A DNA stretch of 26,491 nucleotides, taken from the IMG/VR virus record IMGVR_UViG_3300007640_000190, positions 1-26,491 of that record; one strand, given 5' to 3'. This DNA comes from a virus. The number at the start of each line of letters is the position of its first letter. The stretch's first letter is position 1. Positions 339-15,843 of this stretch are shown here, piece by piece. The position numbers and the translations under genes are program-made. The notes beneath the pieces were generated by a model. That model was not told where the DNA came from and searched no databases. It saw nothing but the letters and a program-made list of their open reading frames with translations.

Positions 339-413
339 GCGAGAGCCTGAGGAAAACAATCACAAAGAGACAATCTCACTACGAGACGAGGAGCAGGAAT
401 ACATCGAGACAAT

Positions 414-622: not shown

Positions 623-1555
623 TTATTCGAACTCTGACATTCTAGGAATTGTAGAATTATAATTAAATAGATCTGTAGAGAAAGTTGAGATAGTAGCTTG
701 AACATATTGATTAACTAGTTCTTGTTTATGTTTTGATTGTTTTCTATCTCGTTTATATTTAAGTTCTATGAGTCTTCCTCCTATTTCGGATGGTGGTATT
801 CCTTTTTCGACAGCCCATCCAAATCCAGAGGAGTGTTCATCTTTATATGTTGGTGTTCTGATAAGGTCTATGGTTTTATAGAAGACTTTATTTTGTTTAT
901 TAATAGTTTCTACTTTGTGTTTGATATGAGTATCTGTGTGTTTGTGTCCCATCCATATTGCATCGCATCTATCTACTTGCGTGAGTATTCTAGAGAAGTC
1001 TATAACGCCTTTTGTAACTGGCGCACCTCCACCGAATCCATGATGGTATTTCATTCTATATGGTTGGTAGGCTGTTTTATCAAAATCTCTTTGTATTTTA
1101 AATACTATCCACCCTGTATAACCTCCTAGATTTATTTTTTTACCTGTTTTAAGTTCTAGGGAATCTTTTAGTCCTTTTAGCAGATCAAATTCTTTATAGT
1201 TATATACAGCAGTTTCGTGATTACCATAAGTAAATAGTTCTAGTATATCTATATATGGTTCAAAGAAAGCAGCATGATATTCTACAAGTCTGTTTAAGTA
1301 ATTACCTGAAACCATATAAGATCTAAGATTTTTAGATCCTCTTCTATCACCTTTACCTTCCATAGCACAGAAAGTATCTCCATTAAGAATTACTTTAATG
1401 TTATTTTCAAGGCAGTATTTTAGATGTTGTTCAAGTATAGATTGTATGCAATGTGGGTTGTCTAAATGCAAGTCAGAAAGGAGTGCTATTTTTGTAGTAG
1501 GGGCGTCTACTTCAACTATGTGTACAGGCATAGTAGGTAGTCTTCTAAGTGACAT
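623..1555 (-). CDS. Calcineurin-like metallophosphoesterase
   Basis: The 310-residue protein has the full set of motifs of the calcineurin-like metallophosphoesterase superfamily in order: D28-x-H30 in SDLHL, GD60 in NGDTF, GNHE at 111-114, a histidine pair at 171-172, and GHKH at 203-206. These residues bind two metal ions and catalyse phosphodiester or phosphomonoester hydrolysis. The superfamily includes SbcD/Mre11 nucleases, cyclic nucleotide phosphodiesterases and protein phosphatases, so the substrate is not known. The start has an AGGA ribosome site, and TAA ends it at 623. It is transcribed leftward, away from all the other modules, with its own terminator. A role in DNA processing or nucleotide turnover is plausible but inferred. 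Confidence 0.85.
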   Translation of the reverse strand: MSLRRLPTMPVHIVEVDAPTTKIALLSDLHLDNPHCIQSILEQHLKYCLENNIKVILNGDTFCAMEGKGDRRGSKNLRSYMVSGNYLNRLVEYHAAFFEPYIDILELFTYGNHETAVYNYKEFDLLKGLKDSLELKTGKKINLGGYTGWIVFKIQRDFDKTAYQPYRMKYHHGFGGGAPVTKGVIDFSRILTQVDRCDAIWMGHKHTDTHIKHKVETINKQNKVFYKTIDLIRTPTYKDEHSSGFGWAVEKGIPPSEIGGRLIELKYKRDRKQSKHKQELVNQYVQATISTFSTDLFNYNSTIPRMSEFE

Positions 1556-1602
1556 ATCTTTAATCCTGTTATGAATAATGTTAACAAATATAATAAAAAA
1601 AA

Positions 1603-1680
1603 GTTGTTTTTTTGTTCTCCTCCCCTCTGCCCTCTTTCTTTCTCTGCGGTTCTCCTCTTTGTTTCCTCTGGCTTTCGCCT
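1603..1680. other. Adenine-free polypyrimidine tract between divergent genes
   Basis: These 78 bases contain no adenine on the plus strand: only C and T with eleven G. They are directly preceded by eight A (1595-1602), which with GTTG and seven T (1607-1613) form an A:T hairpin. The complementary strand is purine-rich and T-free and contains several AGGAG-like words. It sits in the only divergent spacer of the window, so transcripts or replication may start here. A leftward transcript across it would be purine-rich RNA on a pyrimidine template, a hybrid known to be unusually stable. Confidence 0.7.
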
Positions 1681-1709
1681 AATGTTTTTTAAATTTTAAA
1701 GAGGTATAG

Positions 1710-1988
1710 ATGAGTCGATTCTATAGAAGAAAAAAGAATGCAGTTAAAAAAACTGATTCTATAAGCACAGTATTAGAATATATCAATGTGCATAGCGCTA
1801 AATCAATAGATATATCTAATACAGCAAATGGTAACTACATGATAACATTGACATACTGCGACAATAGTAAAGAATATATCGGAGACCAATCTGCAGAAGA
1901 TATATATAAATTTTCAAAAGAGTACAATTTGAAAAATGATTTTGAATTAAGAGCAGCTCTGAAAAATAACAACTTAGAGGAAATGTAA
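1710..1988 (+). CDS. Small hypothetical protein, first gene of the rightward block
   Basis: The 92-residue protein starts with a basic stretch (MSRFYRRKKNAVKK), followed by a mixed, mostly polar body with a hydrophobic strand-like patch near residues 42-48 (NYMITLT). The start is preceded by AGAGG at good spacing. No motif was recognised. It begins the rightward gene series after the divergent spacer, and its stop overlaps the next start as TAATG, indicating translational coupling. A DNA-binding or regulatory role would fit the basic N-terminus and early position, but nothing in the sequence proves it. Confidence 0.65.
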   Translation: MSRFYRRKKNAVKKTDSISTVLEYINVHSAKSIDISNTANGNYMITLTYCDNSKEYIGDQSAEDIYKFSKEYNLKNDFELRAALKNNNLEEM

Positions 1989-5667: not shown

Positions 5668-6564
5668 ATGAGTTGGGGTGATGCACCAAAACCTACTACC
5701 GAAAACGTGAATGTTTCGCCTATAAATGACGGAGATTACGTTTTATGCATGTTACTTGATAGAAAGTTACCTAAACAATCTGAAGAAGCTATAAAGCTTC
5801 TGGAAAACAATGGTGAAATACCAAATAGAGAAGATTGGGCTAAATGGGGTATGGCATTTGACGTAGCTATTATAGCCAAAGGAAAAACTAAAGATCTAAT
5901 AGATCAAAAGTTAATAGATGCACATGGTGATGATATTAAACTTCCTAATGGTAATATATTTAACACTATTAAAGTATATCCACCATCTTTAGCTAAAGAA
6001 GCTAAATATATTATGGAAAAATGTATAAAGCCAGATTTATCTATAGAATCTATTTATCCATCACCATTTCCTGCTAGAGATTTTAAAACTAAAAAACTAG
6101 TAACTGATGTCGAACCAGAAGAAAGAGAAATGTATGCAGATCTTTTAATCAAAGAACAAGACAGAATTAATGATTGGAATAATTTAATTACTTGGTGGGA
6201 AACATTAGCACCAGAAGAAAAGCATGAAAGATTAGAAGAGTTGTTACAAATGCAATATTTAATTGCTAAAGTAGATTGGGTTGAAAAGGAGGTAAATTAT
6301 TTACCTTTAGACAAAGGAACTATTTTTGCTGCTAAAGCGGTTAAATCTGGAAAGTATATTAATCTTAAAACAGTTACTTGGGACAAACAAAACAGAAAAT
6401 GGGATATTCATTCTAATGGAGCATGGATAGGAGATTTCGATGAAATAGATAGTACAGAAATAGCTGATAAGTTAATAGAAGCTAGAAAACAATCTTTTGT
6501 TAATAAAGCTAAAAAATCTAAAACATCTATAGTAGATAGTTTACCAGAGGAAGCACCGTTTTGA
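5668..6564 (+). CDS. Replication-module protein with SSB-like C-terminal tail
   Basis: The 298-residue protein has no family that I recognise, but it ends in LPEEAPF, resembling the acidic-hydrophobic tip (DDIPF) by which bacterial SSB recruits replication and recombination partners. The segment just before it (residues 272-290) is Lys/Ser-rich and probably disordered, also like an SSB linker. The N-terminal domain (20-125) alternates strands and helices; the middle is helical and Trp-rich. It lies between the annealing protein and the helicase, with a strong GGAG site. A single-strand-binding or helicase-loading role is an inference from the tail and position. Confidence 0.6.
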   Translation: MSWGDAPKPTTENVNVSPINDGDYVLCMLLDRKLPKQSEEAIKLLENNGEIPNREDWAKWGMAFDVAIIAKGKTKDLIDQKLIDAHGDDIKLPNGNIFNTIKVYPPSLAKEAKYIMEKCIKPDLSIESIYPSPFPARDFKTKKLVTDVEPEEREMYADLLIKEQDRINDWNNLITWWETLAPEEKHERLEELLQMQYLIAKVDWVEKEVNYLPLDKGTIFAAKAVKSGKYINLKTVTWDKQNRKWDIHSNGAWIGDFDEIDSTEIADKLIEARKQSFVNKAKKSKTSIVDSLPEEAPF

Positions 6565-7877
6565 TTCAAAGAATAGAACATGAAGCTATATTACTTATAT
6601 GTTCTGCTCTTCAACCTGAAAATATATTAAGAGTAAAAGATGGGCATATATCACGACCTAATTATGTTAATTTATTAAAAGAGATTAAACGTAAAGGTCG
6701 TGATGCTCTTGATTTTCTTAATAATCTAAATGTTCAAGAAACAGAACTTATAGAAAAACAAATAGATAAAATTACATTTATGCCATCTGATGAAATAGAG
6801 TATTTGTTTAAATATTCTTTAAGAGTAATCGAAAAAGATGAAACAATAAAAGTAAATTTATCTAAGCTTGATAGAGCTAAAGACTTATTAATTAATGGAT
6901 ATCTTAATGAAGGCGTAGAGCTTGCTAAAGGAGTCAAGTTTTATACTGATAAAGAGTTTAAGTCCACAATAGATTATATGAAAGAATCTATTAGAGAAAG
7001 TAATGGTATATTAACTGGTATACCTGATATAGATAATAGATTAAATGGTTTGTTGTTAGGTAATATGTTTGCTATTGCAGGTGATTCTGGACAAATGAAA
7101 ACTATGTTTAGTTTATGGGTTATAATTACTATTTTAATTAAAAATCCTAAATTGTCAGCAGCATATTTTGAAAAAGAAATGCTTGTAAAAGATGTAGCTC
7201 GAAGACTTGTATCTATGTACTTAAGAATAGATATGGGTAAAATACAAGGACTAGCTTCTATAGAGAATGAAGCAGAAAGAAAAAAAGCAGAAAAAGATAT
7301 AGAAAGTAAAATTGATGAAGAGTTAACTAAAGATAATATTTATACAGATGCTTTAAAAAGACTGCATATAGTCGCACCTAATCAATTTAACGATGCTTTT
7401 GATATATGGAAGATAGTAGAATCATTACAAGTACAAATATGGGGCTTAGATTTTATTACAATGCTTGGCGATGGAGAAGAAGGAGATGAAGGTTATCAAT
7501 TTGTTAAAAGACAACTTGGTATATTAAAAGACATGACTACAACAACAGAAACATTAGGCTTTCCATTATCGCAATTAAAACAAAATACAGTAGATACTAG
7601 AACTGTCAAAATTCCTAAGTTATCAGACATGGAATATGGTAGTAAACTAAAACAATATTCTGCTTATGTATTTTCAGTTTTTTATCCTTATAACTATTAT
7701 CGTAGTTGGGATAAAAACTGGTTTTATGCTATAAGTGCTAAAGCTAGACATAACCACTCACTTACATTACCGTTAAAAGTATTTCCTGAATATTGTTATT
7801 ATCAAACACCATTAGAAGATGAAAGAATAGCGATGTTAGGAAGATTACAAAATTACATAACACAAGAAAAAGATTAA
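6561..7877 (+). CDS. DnaB-like replicative helicase
   Basis: The 438-residue protein has the RecA-fold motifs of DnaB-type helicases. Walker A is GDSGQMKT (174-181), followed by FEKEM (203-207, catalytic Glu206 as in FSLEM). Walker B is LDFITML (296-302), with a LSQLKQN sensor segment (336-342) and a late region similar to the DnaB H4 motif. It would unwind the phage replication fork with ATP hydrolysis. Residues 1-130 probably form the helical collar domain. The start is TTG, overlapping the upstream stop (TTTTGA); GAGG lies about ten bases before and no ATG is available nearby. Methionine in the Walker A loop is unusual. A stop in the downstream frame is followed by a Cys-rich frame (see 7873-8151). 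Confidence 0.85.
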   Translation: MIQRIEHEAILLICSALQPENILRVKDGHISRPNYVNLLKEIKRKGRDALDFLNNLNVQETELIEKQIDKITFMPSDEIEYLFKYSLRVIEKDETIKVNLSKLDRAKDLLINGYLNEGVELAKGVKFYTDKEFKSTIDYMKESIRESNGILTGIPDIDNRLNGLLLGNMFAIAGDSGQMKTMFSLWVIITILIKNPKLSAAYFEKEMLVKDVARRLVSMYLRIDMGKIQGLASIENEAERKKAEKDIESKIDEELTKDNIYTDALKRLHIVAPNQFNDAFDIWKIVESLQVQIWGLDFITMLGDGEEGDEGYQFVKRQLGILKDMTTTTETLGFPLSQLKQNTVDTRTVKIPKLSDMEYGSKLKQYSAYVFSVFYPYNYYRSWDKNWFYAISAKARHNHSLTLPLKVFPEYCYYQTPLEDERIAMLGRLQNYITQEKD

Positions 7878-8151
7878 AGATTGTCCTATAGATAATTACA
7901 AAGGCTTATATGCTTCTGATAGATGCATAAATAGCGATAAATGCCAACAGTTGTGCTTACGCAAGTATTGGAGACGCTACAGGCGTTGGGTTCAGGAAGA
8001 ACGTAATTTTTCTACTTGCGAAGGCACACCTGATGGTAATTGTAAATATTTTATTAAAGATGATGAACAGGACAAATTAATTAATTTCTTAAAGGAGTAT
8101 CATAATGTTACCAGACGTAAAAGGGGTACTCTTAGCAGCCAAACACCTTAA
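7873..8151 (+). CDS. Cys-rich small protein, start uncertain
   Basis: A frame open from 7861 encodes a basic, Trp-rich peptide with six cysteines: C4, C18-x5-C24-x3-C28, and C49-x7-C57, counted from an ATT at 7873. This pattern suggests a zinc-binding domain. The only conventional start is TTG 7951, which would lose the first three cysteines and has no ribosome site. ATT 7873 overlaps the helicase stop as ATTAA and could be used by reinitiation. A +1 frameshift joining it to the helicase C-terminus, or a sequence error, is the alternative. The end overlaps the next gene by 47 bases. The coding nature is likely; the start and function are open. Confidence 0.55.
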   Translation: MKDCPIDNYKGLYASDRCINSDKCQQLCLRKYWRRYRRWVQEERNFSTCEGTPDGNCKYFIKDDEQDKLINFLKEYHNVTRRKRGTLSSQTP

Positions 8152-8368
8152 TATTCATATAGAAAAAATAATGCTTGATTATTATCAAGTTTATTCTCAT
8201 CCTTTTAAATATTATGATATTAAGTTTGAACCGTTAGAAAAATTATTTAAAGTTGTATCTTTAGAGTGTGAGTTAGATCAAGAAAAAAAAAGTTATTTTA
8301 TGACAGAAACACGACTTGCATTTAATTTAGTTACTAACTTAAATAATTTATTAGAATTAAAGAGGTAA
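8105..8368 (+). CDS. Small hypothetical protein
   Basis: The 87-residue protein begins MLPDVKGVLLAAKHLNIHIE behind a near-perfect AAGGAG site. It appears mostly helical, with aromatic residues in the middle (DYYQVYSHPFKYYD). It starts inside the end of the Cys-rich frame and stops two bases before the RuvC-like gene. No family was recognised. Its setting between helicase and resolvase suggests a replication accessory role, but only by position. Confidence 0.65.
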   Translation: MLPDVKGVLLAAKHLNIHIEKIMLDYYQVYSHPFKYYDIKFEPLEKLFKVVSLECELDQEKKSYFMTETRLAFNLVTNLNNLLELKR

Positions 8369-8370
8369 AG

Positions 8371-8862
8371 ATGTTAATAGTAGGAATAGACCCAGGAAGA
8401 AAAGGCGCTATTTGTGAATATTGGGAAGATAAAGACCATATAGCTTTATATCAAATGACAATAGAAACATTTGCAGAAAGAGCTAATCAATGGACCGTTT
8501 ACCCTGAAGTAGCAATATATTTAGAAAAGGCACAAGCTATGAGTAAACAAGGCGTAGTAAGCATGTTTTCTTATGGAAGACACTTTGGGCAATTAGAAGG
8601 AATATTAATGGGTAACGGATTAGATTATAATTTAATCGCACCTCAATCATGGACATCAAAAATGACAAAAACTTACGCAGGAGATAATGCAAAACAAAGA
8701 GCTTTATCTGCTGCAAAATTTTTATTTCCAGATGTAAATTTATTAGCAACAAAAAGAAGTCGTAAGCCACATGATGGATTTGTAGATGCTCTACTTATAG
8801 CAGAATATGGCAGACAAAAGGAGTTATTGCAAAATGAAAACAATGTTAGGCAAGCCTATTGA
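8371..8862 (+). CDS. RuvC-like Holliday-junction resolvase
   Basis: The 163-residue protein has an RNase H-fold resolvase layout: IVGIDPGRKGAI at 3-14 (catalytic Asp7), YLEKAQAM at 50-57 (Glu52), and KPHDGFVDALLIAEY at 132-146 (Asp135 and Asp139). The spacing and length match RuvC-like and phage resolvases that cut four-way DNA junctions using metal ions. It would clear recombination intermediates before packaging. AGAGG precedes the start. It overlaps the next gene by 29 bases and follows the recombination genes, as expected for this role. Confidence 0.8.
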   Translation: MLIVGIDPGRKGAICEYWEDKDHIALYQMTIETFAERANQWTVYPEVAIYLEKAQAMSKQGVVSMFSYGRHFGQLEGILMGNGLDYNLIAPQSWTSKMTKTYAGDNAKQRALSAAKFLFPDVNLLATKRSRKPHDGFVDALLIAEYGRQKELLQNENNVRQAY

Positions 8863-9223
8863 TTTAAGAGATGAGGTATTAAATAAGCGTAAAGAGCGTA
8901 AAATAAGTAATGCCAAAAAGATTAAAGAAGAGATATTTTTCAAATATGGTAAAGTATTATCACTTACAAATATAAACACGATAAAAATAAAAAATAACTT
9001 TACTTATATTCAAACTTTAGACTATTTTTTAGATAAATGTGAAAAGCAAAAAAACTCAACAATATCTTTATTTGATACTGAAGATTTAATCTTAAATAGT
9101 TATACAAGAACAAAATCACTTACCGAATATTCGCCTTCTGAAATGAGAAGGTATGTAGATAAAATGGGTTTTCATCCTACATGGAAAATGATATTAATGT
9201 CATATTCAAAAAGGAGAAGTTAA
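8834..9223 (+). CDS. Small hypothetical basic protein
   Basis: Start ATG 8834 is chosen because AAAGGAG lies ten bases upstream; a longer form from 8807 would begin before that site. The 129-residue protein is Lys-rich in its first third (LNKRKERKISNAKKIKEE) and helical. No motif was recognised. It overlaps the resolvase gene upstream, and its stop overlaps the next ATG as TAATG. The basic N-terminus and position allow DNA binding, but that is not shown. Confidence 0.6.
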   Translation: MKTMLGKPIDLRDEVLNKRKERKISNAKKIKEEIFFKYGKVLSLTNINTIKIKNNFTYIQTLDYFLDKCEKQKNSTISLFDTEDLILNSYTRTKSLTEYSPSEMRRYVDKMGFHPTWKMILMSYSKRRS

Positions 9224-10068
9224 TGAAGTATACAAATAATTATAACTTAACCCAAGCATTTGTAGATGCATTAACTTATGATGATTATGATTATGAAGAA
9301 GGAGTTATATCAGTATCAAGGTTAATTAGCCCGCCACATCAAAGAAGATTATATGACAAACATAGAAATGATATTGTAGAAGATGCTATAAACAAAGTAC
9401 ATACTTTATTAGGTACTGCTACTCATGCTTATGCAGAAAAAGCTAATAAAGATAAATACTTAATAGAAAAAAGATTTTATGATATTATTGAAGATCAAAA
9501 AATATCTGCAAAGATTGATTTATATGACTATGACAACAATTCAATACAAGATTTTAAAACTACCAGTAAATATAAATTTAAAGATGGTAAGCTGCCTATT
9601 GAATATATCCAACAATTAAATGTTCAAGCTTACTTAATGAAAAAGTCAGGTTATGAAGTTAAAAAACTATATATTAACGCTATTTTTAAAGATTGGAGAC
9701 AATCTGATTTATATGATGCAGGTATGCCTTCAACTCCTGCGATGAGCTATGAAATACCTTTATGGAGTGAAGATAAGCAATATGCTTTTATTTTAGAAAG
9801 GATTAAATATCATTTGCGAGATGATATAACAGTTTGTACGCCTGAAGAAAGATGGGCTGTTAAACCTAAGTTTGCGGTAATGAAGCAAAACAGAAAAACT
9901 GCAATAAGATTGCTTGATTCAGAGTCTGAAGCAATAATTTATATGGCAAATCATAATTATGCTCAACCAGTATATTACATAGAAAAAAGAGAAGGTGAAG
10001 ACAAAAGGTGTACAGGATATTGTTCTGTTAATTCTTTTTGTTCTTATTATCAAAAGAAATATATTTGA
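9223..10068 (+). CDS. PD-(D/E)XK exonuclease with probable Fe-S cysteines
   Basis: The 281-residue protein (ATG 9223, preceded by AAGGAG) has a RecB/lambda-exonuclease-type nuclease core: GTATHAYAE (64-72, His68), Glu82, AKIDL (96-100, Asp99), QDFKTT (109-114, Asp110 and Lys112), and YIQQLNVQAYL (128-138). Cys205 and a C-terminal group C263-x3-C267-x5-C273 resemble the four-cysteine Fe-S staple of Cas4 and AddB nucleases. It would resect double-strand ends to feed the annealing protein at 4944-5657. It is the last gene before a strong terminator. The nuclease call is firm; the Fe-S cluster is inferred. Confidence 0.8.
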   Translation: MKYTNNYNLTQAFVDALTYDDYDYEEGVISVSRLISPPHQRRLYDKHRNDIVEDAINKVHTLLGTATHAYAEKANKDKYLIEKRFYDIIEDQKISAKIDLYDYDNNSIQDFKTTSKYKFKDGKLPIEYIQQLNVQAYLMKKSGYEVKKLYINAIFKDWRQSDLYDAGMPSTPAMSYEIPLWSEDKQYAFILERIKYHLRDDITVCTPEERWAVKPKFAVMKQNRKTAIRLLDSESEAIIYMANHNYAQPVYYIEKREGEDKRCTGYCSVNSFCSYYQKKYI

Positions 10069-10105
10069 TCGGATTATAGTAATACCTTGAATACCTTTAT
10101 GCTGT

Positions 10106-10138
10106 GTAGGAGAAGCCCGATCACTTCTCCTACTTTTT
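10106..10138 (+). terminator. Strong Rho-independent terminator after the DNA-metabolism block
   Basis: GTAGGAGAAG (10106-10115) pairs perfectly with CTTCTCCTAC (10124-10133) around an eight-base loop and is followed by TTTTT. Ten perfect base pairs plus the T-run make this a textbook intrinsic terminator, ending the operon that finishes with the exonuclease gene. Confidence 0.9.
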
Positions 10139-10154
10139 AAATAAACAAAACAAC

Positions 10155-10172
10155 ATTAATTTAGAAATTAAT
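10155..10172. repeat. Perfect AT inverted repeat, possible operator
   Basis: ATTAATTT (10155-10162) and AAATTAAT (10165-10172) are exact inverted copies with a two-base centre. The repeat lies just after the terminator and before the RadC leader, where a promoter for the next block should lie. A repressor-binding site is plausible, although such AT palindromes arise easily in this base composition. Confidence 0.35.
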
Positions 10173-10183
10173 TAAACAATGAG

Positions 10184-10234
10184 AACAAGCTCATATTAAA
10201 GGTGTTGTGAGCCGTGTGATAGTATGGGCTTGTT
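10184..10234 (+). promoter_or_regulatory. Structured leader next to the ribosome site of the RadC-like gene
   Basis: AACAAGCTCATA (10184-10195) pairs with TATGGGCTTGTT (10223-10234) over 12 positions including one G:U pair, enclosing a 27-base G-rich loop. The stem ends one base before the AAGGAGG ribosome site (10236-10242). Such placement suggests that the fold influences translation, or helps to expose the site. It matches no riboswitch that I know. An in-frame GTG at 10207 inside the loop is unlikely to be the start, since the strong ribosome site follows it. Confidence 0.45.
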
Positions 10235-10248
10235 TAAGGAGGAAAAAG

Positions 10249-10695
10249 ATGAGAATAACTAAATATAAGCTTACTTGTATAAGAGAAAAAGGTTTTAATT
10301 ATGATACAAAAAAAAAGTGTTTAAATCCTAGCGACTTAGCTGATATTGCTAAAAGTCTTTATACAGACGATGATATAGAGTTAAAAGAAAAAGCATGGGT
10401 ACTTGCATTAAATACTTCTAATCGTCTTATAGGTGTTAATTTAGTATCAGAAGGTAGTTTAAATCAAACTATTGTTCATCCTAGAGAAGTGTTCCAGTTT
10501 GCATTACTTAGTAACGCTAACAGCATTGTCTTTGTACATAATCATCCGTCAGGAGAGCTAAGGGCATCGCCAGCAGATATTACTATATCTAAGCAATTAC
10601 AAGAAGCAGGAAAGCTTTTAAACATTAAATTATTAGACAGCATTATAGTAACAGAAGAAGGCTATCTTTCACTTCTAGAAGAAGGTCATATTTAA
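10249..10695 (+). CDS. RadC-like JAB/MPN-domain protein
   Basis: The 148-residue protein contains the RadC (JAB/MPN metalloprotease fold) domain: VSEGSLNQTIVHPREVF (66-82), FVHNHPSG (95-102) with metal ligands His97 and His99, SPADITIS (107-114) with Asp110, then LLDSIIV. The helix-hairpin-helix region found at the N-terminus of full-length bacterial RadC is absent, as in short plasmid and phage versions. RadC's name comes from a proposed repair role that was later disputed; phage copies are frequent in anti-restriction or accessory regions. The start has AAGGAGG. It begins the second rightward block after a terminator. Confidence 0.85.
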   Translation: MRITKYKLTCIREKGFNYDTKKKCLNPSDLADIAKSLYTDDDIELKEKAWVLALNTSNRLIGVNLVSEGSLNQTIVHPREVFQFALLSNANSIVFVHNHPSGELRASPADITISKQLQEAGKLLNIKLLDSIIVTEEGYLSLLEEGHI

Positions 10696-10710
10696 AACAA
10701 AGGAAATACA

Positions 10711-10869
10711 ATGAACATCTTAGCATTTATAATAACACTTCTAATGCTGCCAATTGTTTTATCTATAAGTATAGCTTTAGTCAAATTATGGTGGTTAAGT
10801 GTGATGTATGTAAAAGATACATGGGACGATATTAATAAAAATCATAAAACAATAAGAGGAATACAATGA
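10711..10869 (+). CDS. Tiny single-span membrane protein
   Basis: A 52-residue frame starts at ATG 10711 behind AAAGGAAA. Residues 3-29 form one long hydrophobic segment (ILAFIITLLMLPIVLSISIA then LVKLWW), followed by a polar C-terminal tail. Its TGA overlaps the next ATG (ATGA), the usual coupling in this phage. The function is unknown. Small phage membrane proteins of this kind often act on the host envelope, but nothing here proves that. Confidence 0.6.
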   Translation: MNILAFIITLLMLPIVLSISIALVKLWWLSVMYVKDTWDDINKNHKTIRGIQ

Positions 10870-11225
10870 AAAAGATTAAGATATTAGACACTGTGGATAG
10901 TCTAAAAGCAACGGCTAGACTTAGCATTATGTCAGCACAAAAGATAGATATGTTTGGAAAGACATTTACAAATTATGTTGACAAAGAAATAGATTATAAC
11001 ATTGAGGGCTTTGTCTTCGCAAAAGAATCATGTGAGATAATAGAAGTTGACGATAGACCTATTCTTTCAGGTGAACCGCCAGAGCCAGGAGCTTATTATG
11101 AACTTAGTAATGATAAAGAGGAGTGGACAGAACCATGTTTGATTATCTACTATTATAAAGACGCAGCCTATCCATACAGAAATCTTTATGACATATATAG
11201 GTACGCAAGGAAAGTTGAGTTATGA
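10866..11225 (+). CDS. Hypothetical protein A1, first copy of duplicated cassette
   Basis: The 119-residue protein is a close paralogue of the protein at 11665-12024. They share IKI-x-DT at the start, FAKESCEIIE, DDRPIL-x-GEPPE, DKEEWT and a near-identical end (DAAYPYRNLYDIY). The first half is more diverged. It is acidic and rich in Tyr, with no known motif. Its ATG overlaps the upstream TGA, and its own stop overlaps the next ATG (TTATGAG). It is probably a small soluble early protein of unknown role; the duplication suggests dosage or divergence under selection. Confidence 0.7.
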   Translation: MKKIKILDTVDSLKATARLSIMSAQKIDMFGKTFTNYVDKEIDYNIEGFVFAKESCEIIEVDDRPILSGEPPEPGAYYELSNDKEEWTEPCLIIYYYKDAAYPYRNLYDIYRYARKVEL

Positions 11226-11683
11226 GTCAGATAAAAGATAAACTAATCAAGATAGTTAGCAAAGTAGAGTTGTTAGACTATCAGATAGCAGATGAGTTAC
11301 TCAGCACTTTCCACATATCTGAAAAGCTAACAGATCTAAAAGAAATAATAGAAGCGTTTGAAGATCTTAGATATTTTGACGAAATAGATAATTGCATTGT
11401 AGATCCACGCCAGACTTACTTTATAGTAGGTTTGCCACCAATAGGTTATAGCTTAAGTGATATTGATAAACGAATAGTAACAACAAAAGAGTTTCAAGGT
11501 AGCGAGATAAGTAATGATTATACTTGGATAAGTTATGTGCCTACATACAAATGCACTCATTTAGATGACTACGATGTAGTTGATGAATGGGAACATATAA
11601 AGAGGGAATATAAGCCTTATCATTTTAAAGTAGTATTTACAGAAGAACAAAAAAGGAGAATGAAATGGAAAAAATCAAGATAA
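11222..11683 (+). CDS. Hypothetical protein B1, second gene of first cassette copy
   Basis: The 153-residue protein starts MSQIKDKLIK and contains FHISEKLT near residues 30-37, which recurs in protein B2 at 12021-12326, also with a MSxI start. After that block it continues with a longer Tyr/Asp-rich domain (about residues 40-150) that B2 lacks. No motif was recognised. It is coupled to A1 by a 4-base overlap, and its end overlaps A2 by 19 bases. The A-B-A-B order supports duplication of the pair rather than of a single gene. Confidence 0.65.
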   Translation: MSQIKDKLIKIVSKVELLDYQIADELLSTFHISEKLTDLKEIIEAFEDLRYFDEIDNCIVDPRQTYFIVGLPPIGYSLSDIDKRIVTTKEFQGSEISNDYTWISYVPTYKCTHLDDYDVVDEWEHIKREYKPYHFKVVFTEEQKRRMKWKKSR

Positions 11684-12024
11684 TAGATACTCTAGAGAGT
11701 GTAAAAGCAACTGCACCATATGGTGTAGGTAGTGCAGTAGTAAAGATGTTTGGTAATACTTACAATGATAATGATTTTGAAGTGAAAGAAGATTTCTATG
11801 TTATTAAAGGTTGGAGATTTGCCAAAGAATCATGTGAGATCATTGAAGATGATGACAGACCTATTTTAGAGGGCGAACCACCAGAGCTTGCATATTATGA
11901 GCTTAGTGATGATAAAGAGGAGTGGACACCCCCTTGCTTGATTATATGCTATGATAAAGACGCAGCCTATCCATACAGAAATCTTTATGACATATATAAG
12001 TACGCAAGGAAGGTGGAGTTATGA
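11665..12024 (+). CDS. Hypothetical protein A2, second copy of duplicated cassette
   Basis: The 119-residue protein is the paralogue of A1 (10866-11225) and has the same length through compensating small indels. The last 70 residues differ at about eight positions and one gap; the first 45 differ much more. It starts behind AGGAGA, within the end of B1. Near the stop, the DNA is almost unchanged between copies even at silent positions, pointing to recent duplication or gene conversion of the 3' part. The function is unknown. Confidence 0.7.
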   Translation: MEKIKIIDTLESVKATAPYGVGSAVVKMFGNTYNDNDFEVKEDFYVIKGWRFAKESCEIIEDDDRPILEGEPPELAYYELSDDKEEWTPPCLIICYDKDAAYPYRNLYDIYKYARKVEL

Positions 12025-12326
12025 GTGAGATAAGAGAAAAGAACCGAGAAACATTAATAAGGCATTACGGGAGCGACCCCGATAAAGCTGAATATCCCGA
12101 AGAAGTTGAGAACTTAAACGGCTTACTCGATACTCACACAAAGATACTTTTAGAGTCTTTCCACATCTCCGAAAAGCTAACAGAGGAAGAAAGGGAATTA
12201 ATAAGATTGTGTAAAAAGCATAGACACTCATTAGGAGCAAGTAGGCAAGATATGAACGAATTGTTAAATGTAATAGACAAACTAACAGGAGAAAGTAATG
12301 AAAGAAGTTCAAATACCACAAGTTAA
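12021..12326 (+). CDS. Hypothetical protein B2, second gene of second cassette copy
   Basis: The 101-residue protein starts MSEIREKNRE and carries the FHISEKLT block (about residues 47-54) shared with B1, then a helical charged end with NELLNVIDKLTGE. It lacks the long C-terminal domain of B1. It overlaps A2 by four bases with GGTGGAG before the start, and overlaps the next gene by 29 bases. No known family was recognised. B1 and B2 probably share origin only in the N-terminal half. Confidence 0.65.
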   Translation: MSEIREKNRETLIRHYGSDPDKAEYPEEVENLNGLLDTHTKILLESFHISEKLTEEERELIRLCKKHRHSLGASRQDMNELLNVIDKLTGESNERSSNTTS

Positions 12327-12531
12327 ACCAAGCGAGTTAGATGACAATGTTATGTATCTAGTAATGAAATTATTACAATACATTACTGTTACCAGTTCTT
12401 TAACAAATAAGAATGAAGACATTAAGTTAAATGATTGTGCAGGTTATTTGCCCGTTTTTAAAACACTAAAAGAAGCCGAAAAATACGCAGGTAATGGTAA
12501 ATATAAAATATTAGCAATATCAGAGGAATAG
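12298..12531 (+). CDS. Small hypothetical protein
   Basis: The 77-residue protein starts at ATG 12298 behind AGGAG and overlaps B2. It has two helical stretches (VMYLVMKLLQYI at residues 18-29, and LKEAEKYAG) and ends in KYKILAISEE. The first helix is hydrophobic but short and contains charges nearby, so it is more likely buried than membrane-spanning. No family was recognised. Confidence 0.6.
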   Translation: MKEVQIPQVKPSELDDNVMYLVMKLLQYITVTSSLTNKNEDIKLNDCAGYLPVFKTLKEAEKYAGNGKYKILAISEE

Positions 12532-12532
12532 A

Positions 12533-12667
12533 ATGAAAACAATACTTAACATATTAGATATAACAAAGCGACTATTAGAAATAGTAGTATTAACAATGTT
12601 TGTTTACGGCCTGTACTGGATAGGGGTAAATAAGCATAGATTGATAGAGATAATGTTCGGAGTTTAA
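12533..12667 (+). CDS. Tiny single-span membrane protein
   Basis: A 44-residue frame starts at ATG 12533 behind AGAGGA and stops directly before the next ATG. Residues 15-31 (LEIVVLTMFVYGLYWIG) form a likely transmembrane helix with basic residues on both sides. It is one of three tiny membrane proteins in this block (with 10711-10869 and 13424-13573). The role is unknown. Confidence 0.55.
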   Translation: MKTILNILDITKRLLEIVVLTMFVYGLYWIGVNKHRLIEIMFGV

Positions 12668-13015
12668 ATGAACGCAGTTAAGACTCCAGATGGCTACATT
12701 ACAACAAAGGAAATATACAGGTACTATCTGCCTGCGCCTATACCTATAGGGTATGAGTACGATGGCGCAACCTATCCTAAATGGATAACATGGCTTAAAG
12801 TACTTGTACTCATATTTGCACCTAAGCTTGACTTAACAGATGCTGTAATAATACATGACTGGCTTTATCAACATAGAAACAAGCATAAGTATAGCAGATA
12901 TTATGTAGACAATGTTGTGTTTTATAATGAACTTAAACGCTACTATTGGAGTTGGGTAGCAAATGTAATATCAAGTGTGACATACAAATTTTCTAAACAG
13001 ATATGGTTAACATAA
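12668..13015 (+). CDS. DUF1353-like phage protein
   Basis: The 115-residue protein has the DUF1353 pattern: GYEYDGATYPKW (28-39), TDAVIIHDWLYQ (57-68) and SRYYVDNVVFYNEL (76-89). The conserved His63, Asp64, Ser76-Arg77 and Asp81 suggest a small enzyme or structural site. DUF1353 proteins are common in tailed phages, often near tail or lysis genes, and their activity is not established. The start directly follows the upstream stop. A hydrophobic stretch (WLKVLVLIFAP, 42-52) may pack within the fold. Confidence 0.65.
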   Translation: MNAVKTPDGYITTKEIYRYYLPAPIPIGYEYDGATYPKWITWLKVLVLIFAPKLDLTDAVIIHDWLYQHRNKHKYSRYYVDNVVFYNELKRYYWSWVANVISSVTYKFSKQIWLT

Positions 13016-13097
13016 ATACCTCTATTTCGCACAGAAACATACCAAGAAACGATTTTAATAACAAAAAGGCATAATGACATGCCAAAAGGAAAAAACG

Positions 13098-13427
13098 ATG
13101 ATACAAGAGCTTATTCAGCATTTAGCAAACACAGAAGAGAAAAAGAAAAAAGAATACTCTAATTCACATGATAGATATGATAATTTTCATCATATGAGTA
13201 AAACAACAGGGAAGAGTGTTATAGAAGTAATAGAAGTATTACAGTCTAAACATTTTTACTCTATAGATAGATTATTTAATGATAGTGAATTTACTAGTTT
13301 TTTAATAAAAGAAAATAAGTTAAAAGATTATATATTTGAAAAGTGGGGAGATTATTTAATATATGAAATATTAAAAGCAGATTATACTTATAATGATTTA
13401 TTAAATAAATACAATACATACAAATGA
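13098..13427 (+). CDS. Small hypothetical protein
   Basis: Start ATG 13098 is preferred, with AAAAGGA seven bases upstream; an in-frame ATG at 13074 has only AAAAAGG before it and is the alternative. The 109-residue protein is Lys-, Tyr- and Asn-rich and probably helical, with a highly charged segment (EEKKKKEYSN) near residues 13-22. No motif was recognised. It is followed by an ATGA overlap with a tiny membrane protein. Confidence 0.55.
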   Translation: MIQELIQHLANTEEKKKKEYSNSHDRYDNFHHMSKTTGKSVIEVIEVLQSKHFYSIDRLFNDSEFTSFLIKENKLKDYIFEKWGDYLIYEILKADYTYNDLLNKYNTYK

Positions 13428-13573
13428 AAATATTATTAGGATTACTTTTTCTTTTGTTTTATATTATATTTATAATATATATTATATATATAGAAGGAAG
13501 AAAAGAAAGAACACCATACAAAGAAATGTGGAAAGAATATTATAAAAAAGAGAAAAAAAACAACAAAAGGTAA
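13424..13573 (+). CDS. Tiny membrane protein with basic cytoplasmic tail
   Basis: A 49-residue frame starts at ATG 13424, overlapping the previous stop. Residues 3-23 are almost entirely Leu, Ile, Phe and Tyr (ILLGLLFLLFYIIFIIYIIY), a clear membrane segment, followed by a Lys/Arg-rich tail of about 25 residues. No ribosome site is evident; translation probably depends on coupling. It is the last gene before a strong terminator. A holin-like or envelope role is possible but unproven. Confidence 0.5.
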   Translation: MKILLGLLFLLFYIIFIIYIIYIEGRKERTPYKEMWKEYYKKEKKNNKR

Positions 13574-13600
13574 TGCTTTTTTAAGCGTTGCCTTTTTTTT
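13567..13600 (+). terminator. Strong Rho-independent terminator before the virion block
   Basis: AAGGTAATGCTT (13567-13578) pairs with AAGCGTTGCCTT (13583-13594) over 12 positions including two G:U pairs, with a TTTT loop and a run of T to 13600. The stem begins inside the last codons of the tiny membrane gene. It separates the accessory block from the portal operon. Confidence 0.9.
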
Positions 13601-13614
13601 ATTTCAAAATTGAA

Positions 13615-13622
13615 TATATTTG
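13615..13622 (+). promoter_or_regulatory. Possible promoter -10/-7 element just before the portal gene
   Basis: TATATTTG ends only four bases before the portal ATG. It contains a sigma70-like TATATT and also matches TAnnTTTG, the -7 element described for Bacteroidota. A good -35 or -33 partner at the right distance is lacking. If it is used, the message would be almost leaderless. The motif is common by chance in AT-rich DNA. Confidence 0.3.
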
Positions 13623-13626
13623 TATT

Positions 13627-15843
13627 ATGGAAAAAAAGATATCAAAAGAAGCAGAGATATACAATTCTTTGTTTATGGAAGCAGACAATGCTAGATCTGA
13701 TGCATTTCGACAAAAGAAAAAATCAGAAGAGTTTTATTTTTCTAATGTAGATGGTACATATACAGAGTTTGATACTAAGCAGTTAGAGAAAATTAAAAAG
13801 GGTGCTAATATTCCAGTAAGTACAAAGATTACTTGGGCTATTATAGAGCATTTAATATCATTCTTAACTGCTAGTAAGCCGTACCCTAGACTTGTAGCTC
13901 CTACAGAAGAATTAAAATCTTTCGCTATGGCTTATGCTAAATTAGTTGAAGCTGTATTTGCTGAATCAGATTATTTAGCACATCTCAATAATGTCATTAG
14001 AGATGTTCTTACTACTGGTTCTGGATATTTTGAAGTATGTAAAAGCAGTTATTATGATGATAGTGCATTAAATGTAGCTATCAAATATCTTAATTGGAAA
14101 AAAGTTATTGTTGACCCTAATTCAGAAGAAGATGATTTTGATGACGCAAGGTTTATTTGTATTGCAGATTTAATGCCTAGAAAGAAAGCACAAGATGAAT
14201 TTGATATAACTATACCTAATGCTACTGATTCTCCTTATAGTGCTATTAGCCAAACTACTATTGATCTAGATGAAAAGTGGCATAACTTTACAGAAAGAGA
14301 AAAGATACGAGAAAAACTAGGTAGATATGTTTTTGTAAGAAGATTTTACGAACAAGAAATATCAAATGTTTATGTATCAGATGATAACGAAGCTAAAATA
14401 AGCAAATCAAAACCTAAACCTATTCAGGTAGATAATCCTAAAAAAATCAAATTAAAAGCCTACATTGAACAATTAGTAGGTCAGATGACCCAAATGTCAC
14501 AATTAGCAGGAGAATCTCAACAGGACCAAGAAGAAGCGTCAAAAATGCAAGCTGAACCAACTACAGATAGCAATCAATTTGCAGAAGGCGAAGCTATTAA
14601 GCAACAAAACTCCCAAGAGCAACAAGAATTACAATCTGAACTGCAAAATTTACAAGAAGAAATCAATAGACTAAAAGAAGCATTGGCAAAAATGCCTAAC
14701 AAAGTAACTCATTACAATATGACTACAGTAGATAAAGAAGAAGTAGTTATAGAAAATTATAGAAGAATAAAGCAAAAGTTATTTAAAAAAACTATTATGA
14801 TTAATGATGAAATTATAGATAGTGAATATATGCCATATCTTAAGCATTATCCTATTGTACATTTTTCTTTTTCTCATATGAGGTCGCCTTATAAAACTTT
14901 TGGTATAGTGCATTACATTAGAGATATGGTAATGGCTATAAATAAAACAACACAGCTTATCATTAATGATATGATGATTAATGGTAATCAAAAGCTTGTT
15001 ACTTTTAAAGGGCAAATACAAGATAAAACACAGTTTGAAGAAGATTATGCAAAGCCTGGTGCTGTTTTAGAAATAGAGCAGTTACCTAATTTACCTGATG
15101 GTGGTAGACCGCTTATTATTCAGCCTGGTACTGTTAATCAAGCAGGTACTTATTTATTAGAAAGATTACAATATTTAGTAGAATACGCTACTGGTATATC
15201 TGCTTTACAGCAAGGTCATACTGGTTCAGCTCCTGATACTTTAGGTGCTACACAATCTTTATTATCTTTTGGTTCACAAAGAGTAAAATTATATGCTCGT
15301 AAAATGGAAAAGCCATTAGAAAGATTAGTGTCTAATGTTATTTCTTATGCAAAAATGTATACTCCTAAAGATCAAACAATACGATATTTAGCAGAAAACA
15401 ATAAAGATGAAGAAATCTTTTTAGAAGATACTTATGAAGATTTAGACTTTAAAGTAAGAGTTGAGATGCAAAAAGGGTCTCCTACTCATAGAGCTATGGC
15501 TGCATCTTTATTAGGTTCAGTATCTGGACAAACTCAAAATCCTCATGTAGCAGATTTATTAACTACAGAGATGTTAAAGAACTTAGACATAGTAGAAGGA
15601 GATGAGTTTGCAGAAAAAATTGATGTGATTAAAAACTTACAACAACAATTAGCTCAAATGGAGCAACAATTAAAAGAAACAGATGGTAAGAATAAGGCAC
15701 TAGAAAATCAATTAGCAAATAGCAAAATAGCTCAACAAACAGATTTGGCAGTTGAAAAAGCTAAAGGTGATATAGAACTTGAAAAACAACAATTATTACA
15801 GCCAGAAGCAGAACAGCAAGAAGAACTTAATCCACCGTTTTAA
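13627..15843 (+). CDS. Portal protein, P22-like
   Basis: The 738-residue protein forms the dodecameric ring at the DNA-entry vertex. Supporting segments are HLISFLTASKPYPRLV (75-90), VLTTGSGYFEV (127-137), the region around IVDPNSEEDDFDDARF (161-176), and YLVEYATGISALQQ followed by LGATQSLLSFGSQRVK (539-554), all typical of P22-type portals. Residues about 275-357 form a Gln/Glu-rich coiled-coil insertion, and the last 80 residues are another coiled coil ending NPPF. Start ATG 13627 is chosen, as it follows the terminator, but no ribosome site precedes it, unlike almost every other gene here. No terminase gene precedes it. Confidence 0.85.
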   Translation: MEKKISKEAEIYNSLFMEADNARSDAFRQKKKSEEFYFSNVDGTYTEFDTKQLEKIKKGANIPVSTKITWAIIEHLISFLTASKPYPRLVAPTEELKSFAMAYAKLVEAVFAESDYLAHLNNVIRDVLTTGSGYFEVCKSSYYDDSALNVAIKYLNWKKVIVDPNSEEDDFDDARFICIADLMPRKKAQDEFDITIPNATDSPYSAISQTTIDLDEKWHNFTEREKIREKLGRYVFVRRFYEQEISNVYVSDDNEAKISKSKPKPIQVDNPKKIKLKAYIEQLVGQMTQMSQLAGESQQDQEEASKMQAEPTTDSNQFAEGEAIKQQNSQEQQELQSELQNLQEEINRLKEALAKMPNKVTHYNMTTVDKEEVVIENYRRIKQKLFKKTIMINDEIIDSEYMPYLKHYPIVHFSFSHMRSPYKTFGIVHYIRDMVMAINKTTQLIINDMMINGNQKLVTFKGQIQDKTQFEEDYAKPGAVLEIEQLPNLPDGGRPLIIQPGTVNQAGTYLLERLQYLVEYATGISALQQGHTGSAPDTLGATQSLLSFGSQRVKLYARKMEKPLERLVSNVISYAKMYTPKDQTIRYLAENNKDEEIFLEDTYEDLDFKVRVEMQKGSPTHRAMAASLLGSVSGQTQNPHVADLLTTEMLKNLDIVEGDEFAEKIDVIKNLQQQLAQMEQQLKETDGKNKALENQLANSKIAQQTDLAVEKAKGDIELEKQQLLQPEAEQQEELNPPF

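Follow-up and report, generated by a model that had tools for sequence, protein, structure and literature searches.

The window, a stretch of 26,491 nt of phage DNA that was analysed as a whole, contains a tract of 78 nt without a single adenine, and this A-free tract is real and beyond chance. The tract probably forms most of the 5' leader of the first rightward gene, from about +2, as judged from a putative promoter directly upstream. Its length is far past chance in so A-rich a genome and it is not a simple repeat, which argues for selection, and we consider selection on the tract likely. As for its role, we tentatively favour a Rho-type leader over the other readings, which are, in decreasing order of likelihood, masking of the translation start, no specific role, a leftward R-loop or purine leader, and a DNA element.

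Features at the divergence point:
1603..1680, + strand, A-free tract (C27 G11 T40, 86% pyrimidine), probable 5' leader RNA
623..1555, - strand, phosphoesterase-like gene (PHROG 7339, DNA repair exonuclease), divergent, left of the tract
1589..1594, + strand, candidate -10 box TATAAT of the rightward transcript, with a putative -35 box CTGTTA (3/6 matches) at a 17-nt spacer
1595..1602, + strand, A8 run, with transcription start predicted at about 1601 from the distance to the -10 box
1698..1704, + strand, Shine-Dalgarno (SD) sequence AAAGAGG of the first rightward gene
1710..1988, + strand, first rightward ORF, 92 aa, no PHROG or Pfam family

Composition of the tract

The phage to which this 26.5-kb window belongs is unclassified; the fragment carries genes for a portal protein (PHROG 156), a DnaB-like helicase and an endolysin and has a run of rightward genes. 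The first-pass annotation had described 78 bases without A and with only eleven G in a genome where A is the commonest base, and our base counts confirmed each of these points, with A making up 38.8% of the window. No 78-mer in the window is richer in pyrimidines than the tract. When we calculated the chance of such a run assuming independence, (1-pA)^78 was 2.4e-17, or about 2e-13 across the window, in agreement with the annotation's statement that it is extremely unlikely. A comparison of A-free runs, which had also been proposed there, gave 20 nt for the runner-up in the window, and the maximum in 400 windows simulated with Markov models of orders 1, 2, 3 and 5 was 28-32 nt. In a comparison set of 62 AT-rich viral loci (<40% GC, 401 kb summed), the longest A-free run was 36 nt and the longest T-free run was 54 nt.

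The tract has no stop codon in any of the six frames because each stop codon has both A and T. A coding tract was rejected, since the open frames are due only to this requirement, and no start codon with an SD sequence was found for a coding reading. Adenine mutagenesis of the DGR type and mimicry of the 16S anti-Shine-Dalgarno sequence were dropped as unsupported explanations. Neither an Rfam match nor a tRNA was found in the window.

Putative promoter and leader layout

On the + strand the signals follow each other in the order TATAAT, A8, tract, AATG-T6-AAATTTT, SD AAAGAGG and ATG (1710). The tract begins 8 bases past the perfect TATAAT, and its end lies 17 nt from the SD sequence and 29 nt from the ATG; the sequence flanking it on both sides is A-rich, as is normal here. 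It had been placed between the leftward phosphoesterase gene and the first rightward gene, which holds, and was said to follow A8-GTTG-T7; the A8 run does precede it, whereas GTTG-T7 already belongs to the tract and opens it. A start 6-8 nt past the -10 box would fall on the last A's of the A8 run, in which case transcription of the leader would begin with the tract. The idea of a special leader is supported by this position, and a transcription pause inside the tract is possible.

The -10 box of the putative rightward promoter is perfect and its -35 box is weak. With a home-made sigma70 position weight matrix, the promoter scored in the top 0.19% of the window, where other positions were comparable, and a stricter consensus promoter scan of the window did not list the TATAAT site. 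Two strong promoter-like sites that face apart lie at 586-663. The minus site reads TTGACA-16-TTTAAT (-10 at 591-586), and the plus site, CTGACA-18-TATAAT (634-663), would transcribe toward the tract, antisense to the phosphoesterase gene.

A possible Rho-type leader

We suggest, as a tentative first choice, that the A-free, G-poor and C/U-rich leader may load an RNA-binding factor and most resembles a Rho-utilisation or attenuation leader. In this reading, a rightward transcription unit carrying replication and structural genes would have the tract as its 5' untranslated leader, with transcription beginning on the last A's of the A8 run if the TATAAT box is used. The first ~78 nt of this RNA would then be A-free, G-poor, C/U-rich and, according to folding, weakly structured by itself, and an RNA of this kind would be well suited to loading a single-strand RNA-binding factor. 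Rho might be the best candidate, or a phage or host protein in competition with Rho, and expression of the operon could be attenuated or released after initiation.

Rho-utilisation (rut) sites have been defined by a 78-nt window with C/G > 1 and a C every 11-13 nt (PMC6407284). When we applied these values to the window in a RhoTermPredict-style scan, the strongest site on the + strand was 1615-1692 (C27 G9, C/G 3.0), and only 12 rut-type windows were found on the + strand in the ~25 kb right of 1590. Like rut sites and Rho-dependent 5' leader attenuators, the tract would give a C-rich and G-poor RNA of ~78 nt, weakly folded on its own, with C spaced at 11-13 nt. However, many antisense windows of this phage score the same or higher, since the antisense of ordinary genes on the minus strand reaches C/G values up to 10, and rut-likeness therefore does not discriminate. 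In addition, rut sites are not marked by a lack of A; Rho binding accounts for C > G and does not demand that A be absent.

The favoured reading draws on the A-free part starting at the predicted +2/+3 and stopping 17 nt upstream of the SD sequence, and on the absence of a coding explanation, the first rightward ORF having no family match. It also draws on a partial echo of the 3' end of the tract in the leader of a leftward gene, which has the same orientation relative to its gene as the tract segment:
1662..1678, + strand, TTTCCTCTGGCTTTCGC, a 15/17 match to the minus-strand leader segment 355-339
339..355, - strand, TTTCCTCAGGCTCTCGC, in the leftmost leftward gene's leader, partially repeating the 3' end of the tract

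A motif common to the tract end and the leftward leader is a lead from this comparison of sequences. The gapped local alignment score of the two leaders was reached by 6 of 500 shuffles, and this p of about 0.012, together with the weak -35 box, speaks against the Rho-type leader. We tried TTGTTT-CCTCWGGCTYTCGC as a shared virus motif and rejected it; the single match in IMG/VR lies within a coding gene of an unrelated phage and was taken as chance.

Lambda-type nut sites consist of boxA and boxB beside a rut site in divergent early leaders. As a lead only, the tract resembles them in being a pyrimidine-rich leader in which CTCTTTG is followed after a spacer by a tiny stem, GGC-TTTC-GCC, and in having a putative partial copy ahead of a leftward gene. 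Unlike in nut sites, the stem has only 3 bp, no antiterminator gene was recognised and the two leaders are weakly similar; folding of the leader gave no stable boxB-like stem.

The leftward leader has features of its own. At 286-500 on the minus strand, this long leader of the leftmost leftward gene is GC-rich (~53%, in a phage of 31% GC) with runs of CCCCCC and GGGGGG, and it folds no better than shuffled sequences on either strand. Within it, a near-perfect 16-nt palindrome, CTTGCTTGCAAGCGAG, at 331-346 is a possible operator.

RNA folding and the start of the first rightward gene

Folded by itself, the tract reaches -5.2 kcal/mol, while 78-mers of the genome average -10.1 kcal/mol. When the transcript to 1780 was included, the tract was predicted to be paired with the start region and not free, which speaks against a freely accessible Rho-type leader. 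In the predicted fold, 1606-1672 pairs with 1677-1753, a region that covers the SD sequence, the start codon and the early codons. These predictions bring up a second role, in which base pairing between the pyrimidine leader and the purine-rich SD sequence, start and first codons would keep translation off until the pairing is opened. We regard this as unlikely, though it ranks directly behind the Rho-type leader. The tract contains two perfect complements of the SD sequence AAAGAGG:
1631..1637, + strand, CCTCTTT
1654-1660, + strand, second copy of CCTCTTT

The predicted unpaired probability of the SD sequence was 0.05-0.21 with the tract and 0.41 with genome segments substituted for it. However, shuffled tracts of the same composition did as well, with a mean unpaired probability of 0.15 and folds nearly as stable (z -0.4 to -1.3). 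Although pairing of CCTCTTT with the SD sequence is predicted, shuffled tracts pair equally well, so that base composition suffices to mask the start site and masking need not be what the tract is for. Other gene starts in the window show stronger z-scores, and masking leaves the total lack of A unexplained.

A-free leaders elsewhere and relatives of the phage

The tract might also be a neutral or weakly selected oddity of low complexity, for instance a leader that just avoids start and stop codons or nuclease-sensitive sites. We hold this to be improbable, behind masking of the start site, and the two properties that argue for selection stand against it. In its favour, a counterpart is absent from every searched collection, and the comparable A-free leaders of bacteria are simple repeats or isolated cases.

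A consensus promoter followed by 40 A-free bases gave four matches in the 2.9 million viral contigs of IMG/VR, none of them an AT-rich leader of this kind. Extending the A-free part to 50 bases and searching 84,980 genomes of bacteria and archaea gave 18 matches, of which about seven are simple tandem repeats, several in Treponema, and the others mostly isolated clostridial cases of higher GC. In promoters of Treponema and other bacteria (e.g. L107, L109, L115, L118), as in the phage, A-free sequence comes right after TATAAT, but those of the Treponema type are simple tandem repeats and the phage tract is not. Seven bacterial loci (L106, L107, L109, L111, L115, L116 and L118, several in Treponema assemblies) have tandem repeats such as TTTG, TGCG or TTGGCTG at or just after TATAAT and are candidate phase-variable promoters. 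Among 291 genomes from a single clostridial class, two, one of them chosen beforehand, carried an A-free 30-mer behind a consensus promoter, and 14 carried a T-free one. The phage leader runs against this usual T-free direction, provided that the clostridial survey applies to the host of the phage. Searches of the literature for A-less or polypyrimidine phage leaders yielded nothing of direct relevance.

Searches with the phosphoesterase, major capsid protein, portal, DnaB, replication and tail proteins found no syntenic relative in the searched collections except the same virus (L011), which is 99.95% identical over 5867-15471 and thus stops short of the tract. The phosphoesterase alignment query found relatives in 584 stretches, and among the loci inspected from the best 80 of these 584, none combined such a divergence with an A-free tract; in those whose gene order was read, the phosphoesterase gene lay downstream of co-directional lysis or structural genes. 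DNA similar to the tract in phage records consisted of chance matches only.

Leftward transcription and the question of an origin

If the tract were transcribed leftward, its U-free, purine-rich RNA could form a stable R-loop as a replication primer, or could serve as a long leader of the phosphoesterase mRNA. This reading is improbable too, and stands just after the absence of a specific role. We compared RNA:DNA hybrids with the DNA duplex using nearest-neighbour energies. The calculated hybrid of the leftward transcript over the tract was 19.3 kcal/mol stronger than the duplex, the most favourable among all sampled minus-strand windows, and that of the rightward transcript was 13.9 kcal/mol weaker, among the least stable 0.08% of + strand windows. 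The first-pass annotation had reasoned from the stable pairing of purine RNA with a pyrimidine template to a possible replication start; the pairing holds for leftward transcription and fails for rightward transcription, in which the RNA is the pyrimidine strand, and an R-loop start from the rightward transcript is not supported.

With the leftward hybrid alone being stable, an R-loop needs leftward transcription from within the first rightward gene, where no convincing leftward promoter was found; the best sites (1782-1777 and 1761-1756) are at the level of the AT-rich background. The tract resembles the T4 R-loop origins of the oriF/uvsY type in that a transcript lies near a phage divergence point with strand-biased composition. 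It differs in favouring an R-loop only leftward, while the apparent promoter points rightward, so that the stable hybrid of a T4-type origin is given by the leftward RNA only. GC skew, also suggested as a check, gave no mark or peak of an origin in the 26-kb fragment; it is slightly above zero on the left side of the divergence and higher on the right side. AT skew in the window tracks gene direction only. The greater number of T-free than A-free leaders in Clostridia would suit leftward transcription, as would the open frame of the phosphoesterase gene, which runs on through the tract; yet the extended frame has no start codon and homologues start near the annotated start. Since the proposed R-loop needs transcription opposite to the apparent promoter, composition outliers have to be read strand by strand, and strong outliers in phage leaders would demand such interpretation even if this leader is not functional.

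The tract as a possible DNA element

The least probable of the ranked readings is a strand-asymmetric binding or melting site, either an origin or an operator lying between two divergent promoters, that needs polypurine/polypyrimidine DNA. Such a site would fit the position, where a possible nuclease gene diverges from an operon with replication genes, as well as the A8 and T7 runs, a short mirror repeat (CTCTTTCTTTCTC) and a 9-nt direct repeat:
1614..1622, + strand, GTTCTCCTC, copy 1
1649..1657, + strand, GTTCTCCTC, copy 2, 35 nt after copy 1

However, the direct repeat is a short one within low-complexity sequence, the tract has neither iterons nor long mirror symmetry, and there was no positive evidence for an origin.

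It is highly improbable that the leader was selected for being A-less as such, so that RNA polymerase would reach about +79 without ATP as elongation substrate, or early elongation would depend on UTP and CTP, as a timing switch after initiation. A functional leader would represent a natural nucleotide-free initial transcribed region, a kind used artificially to stall RNA polymerase, and would suggest that the first operon is controlled after initiation in a phage lineage without a characterised member in the searched records.

Elsewhere in the window, the genes at 11016-11242 and 11818-12040 are duplicates whose DNA is 85% identical and which encode two similar proteins of 119 aa.
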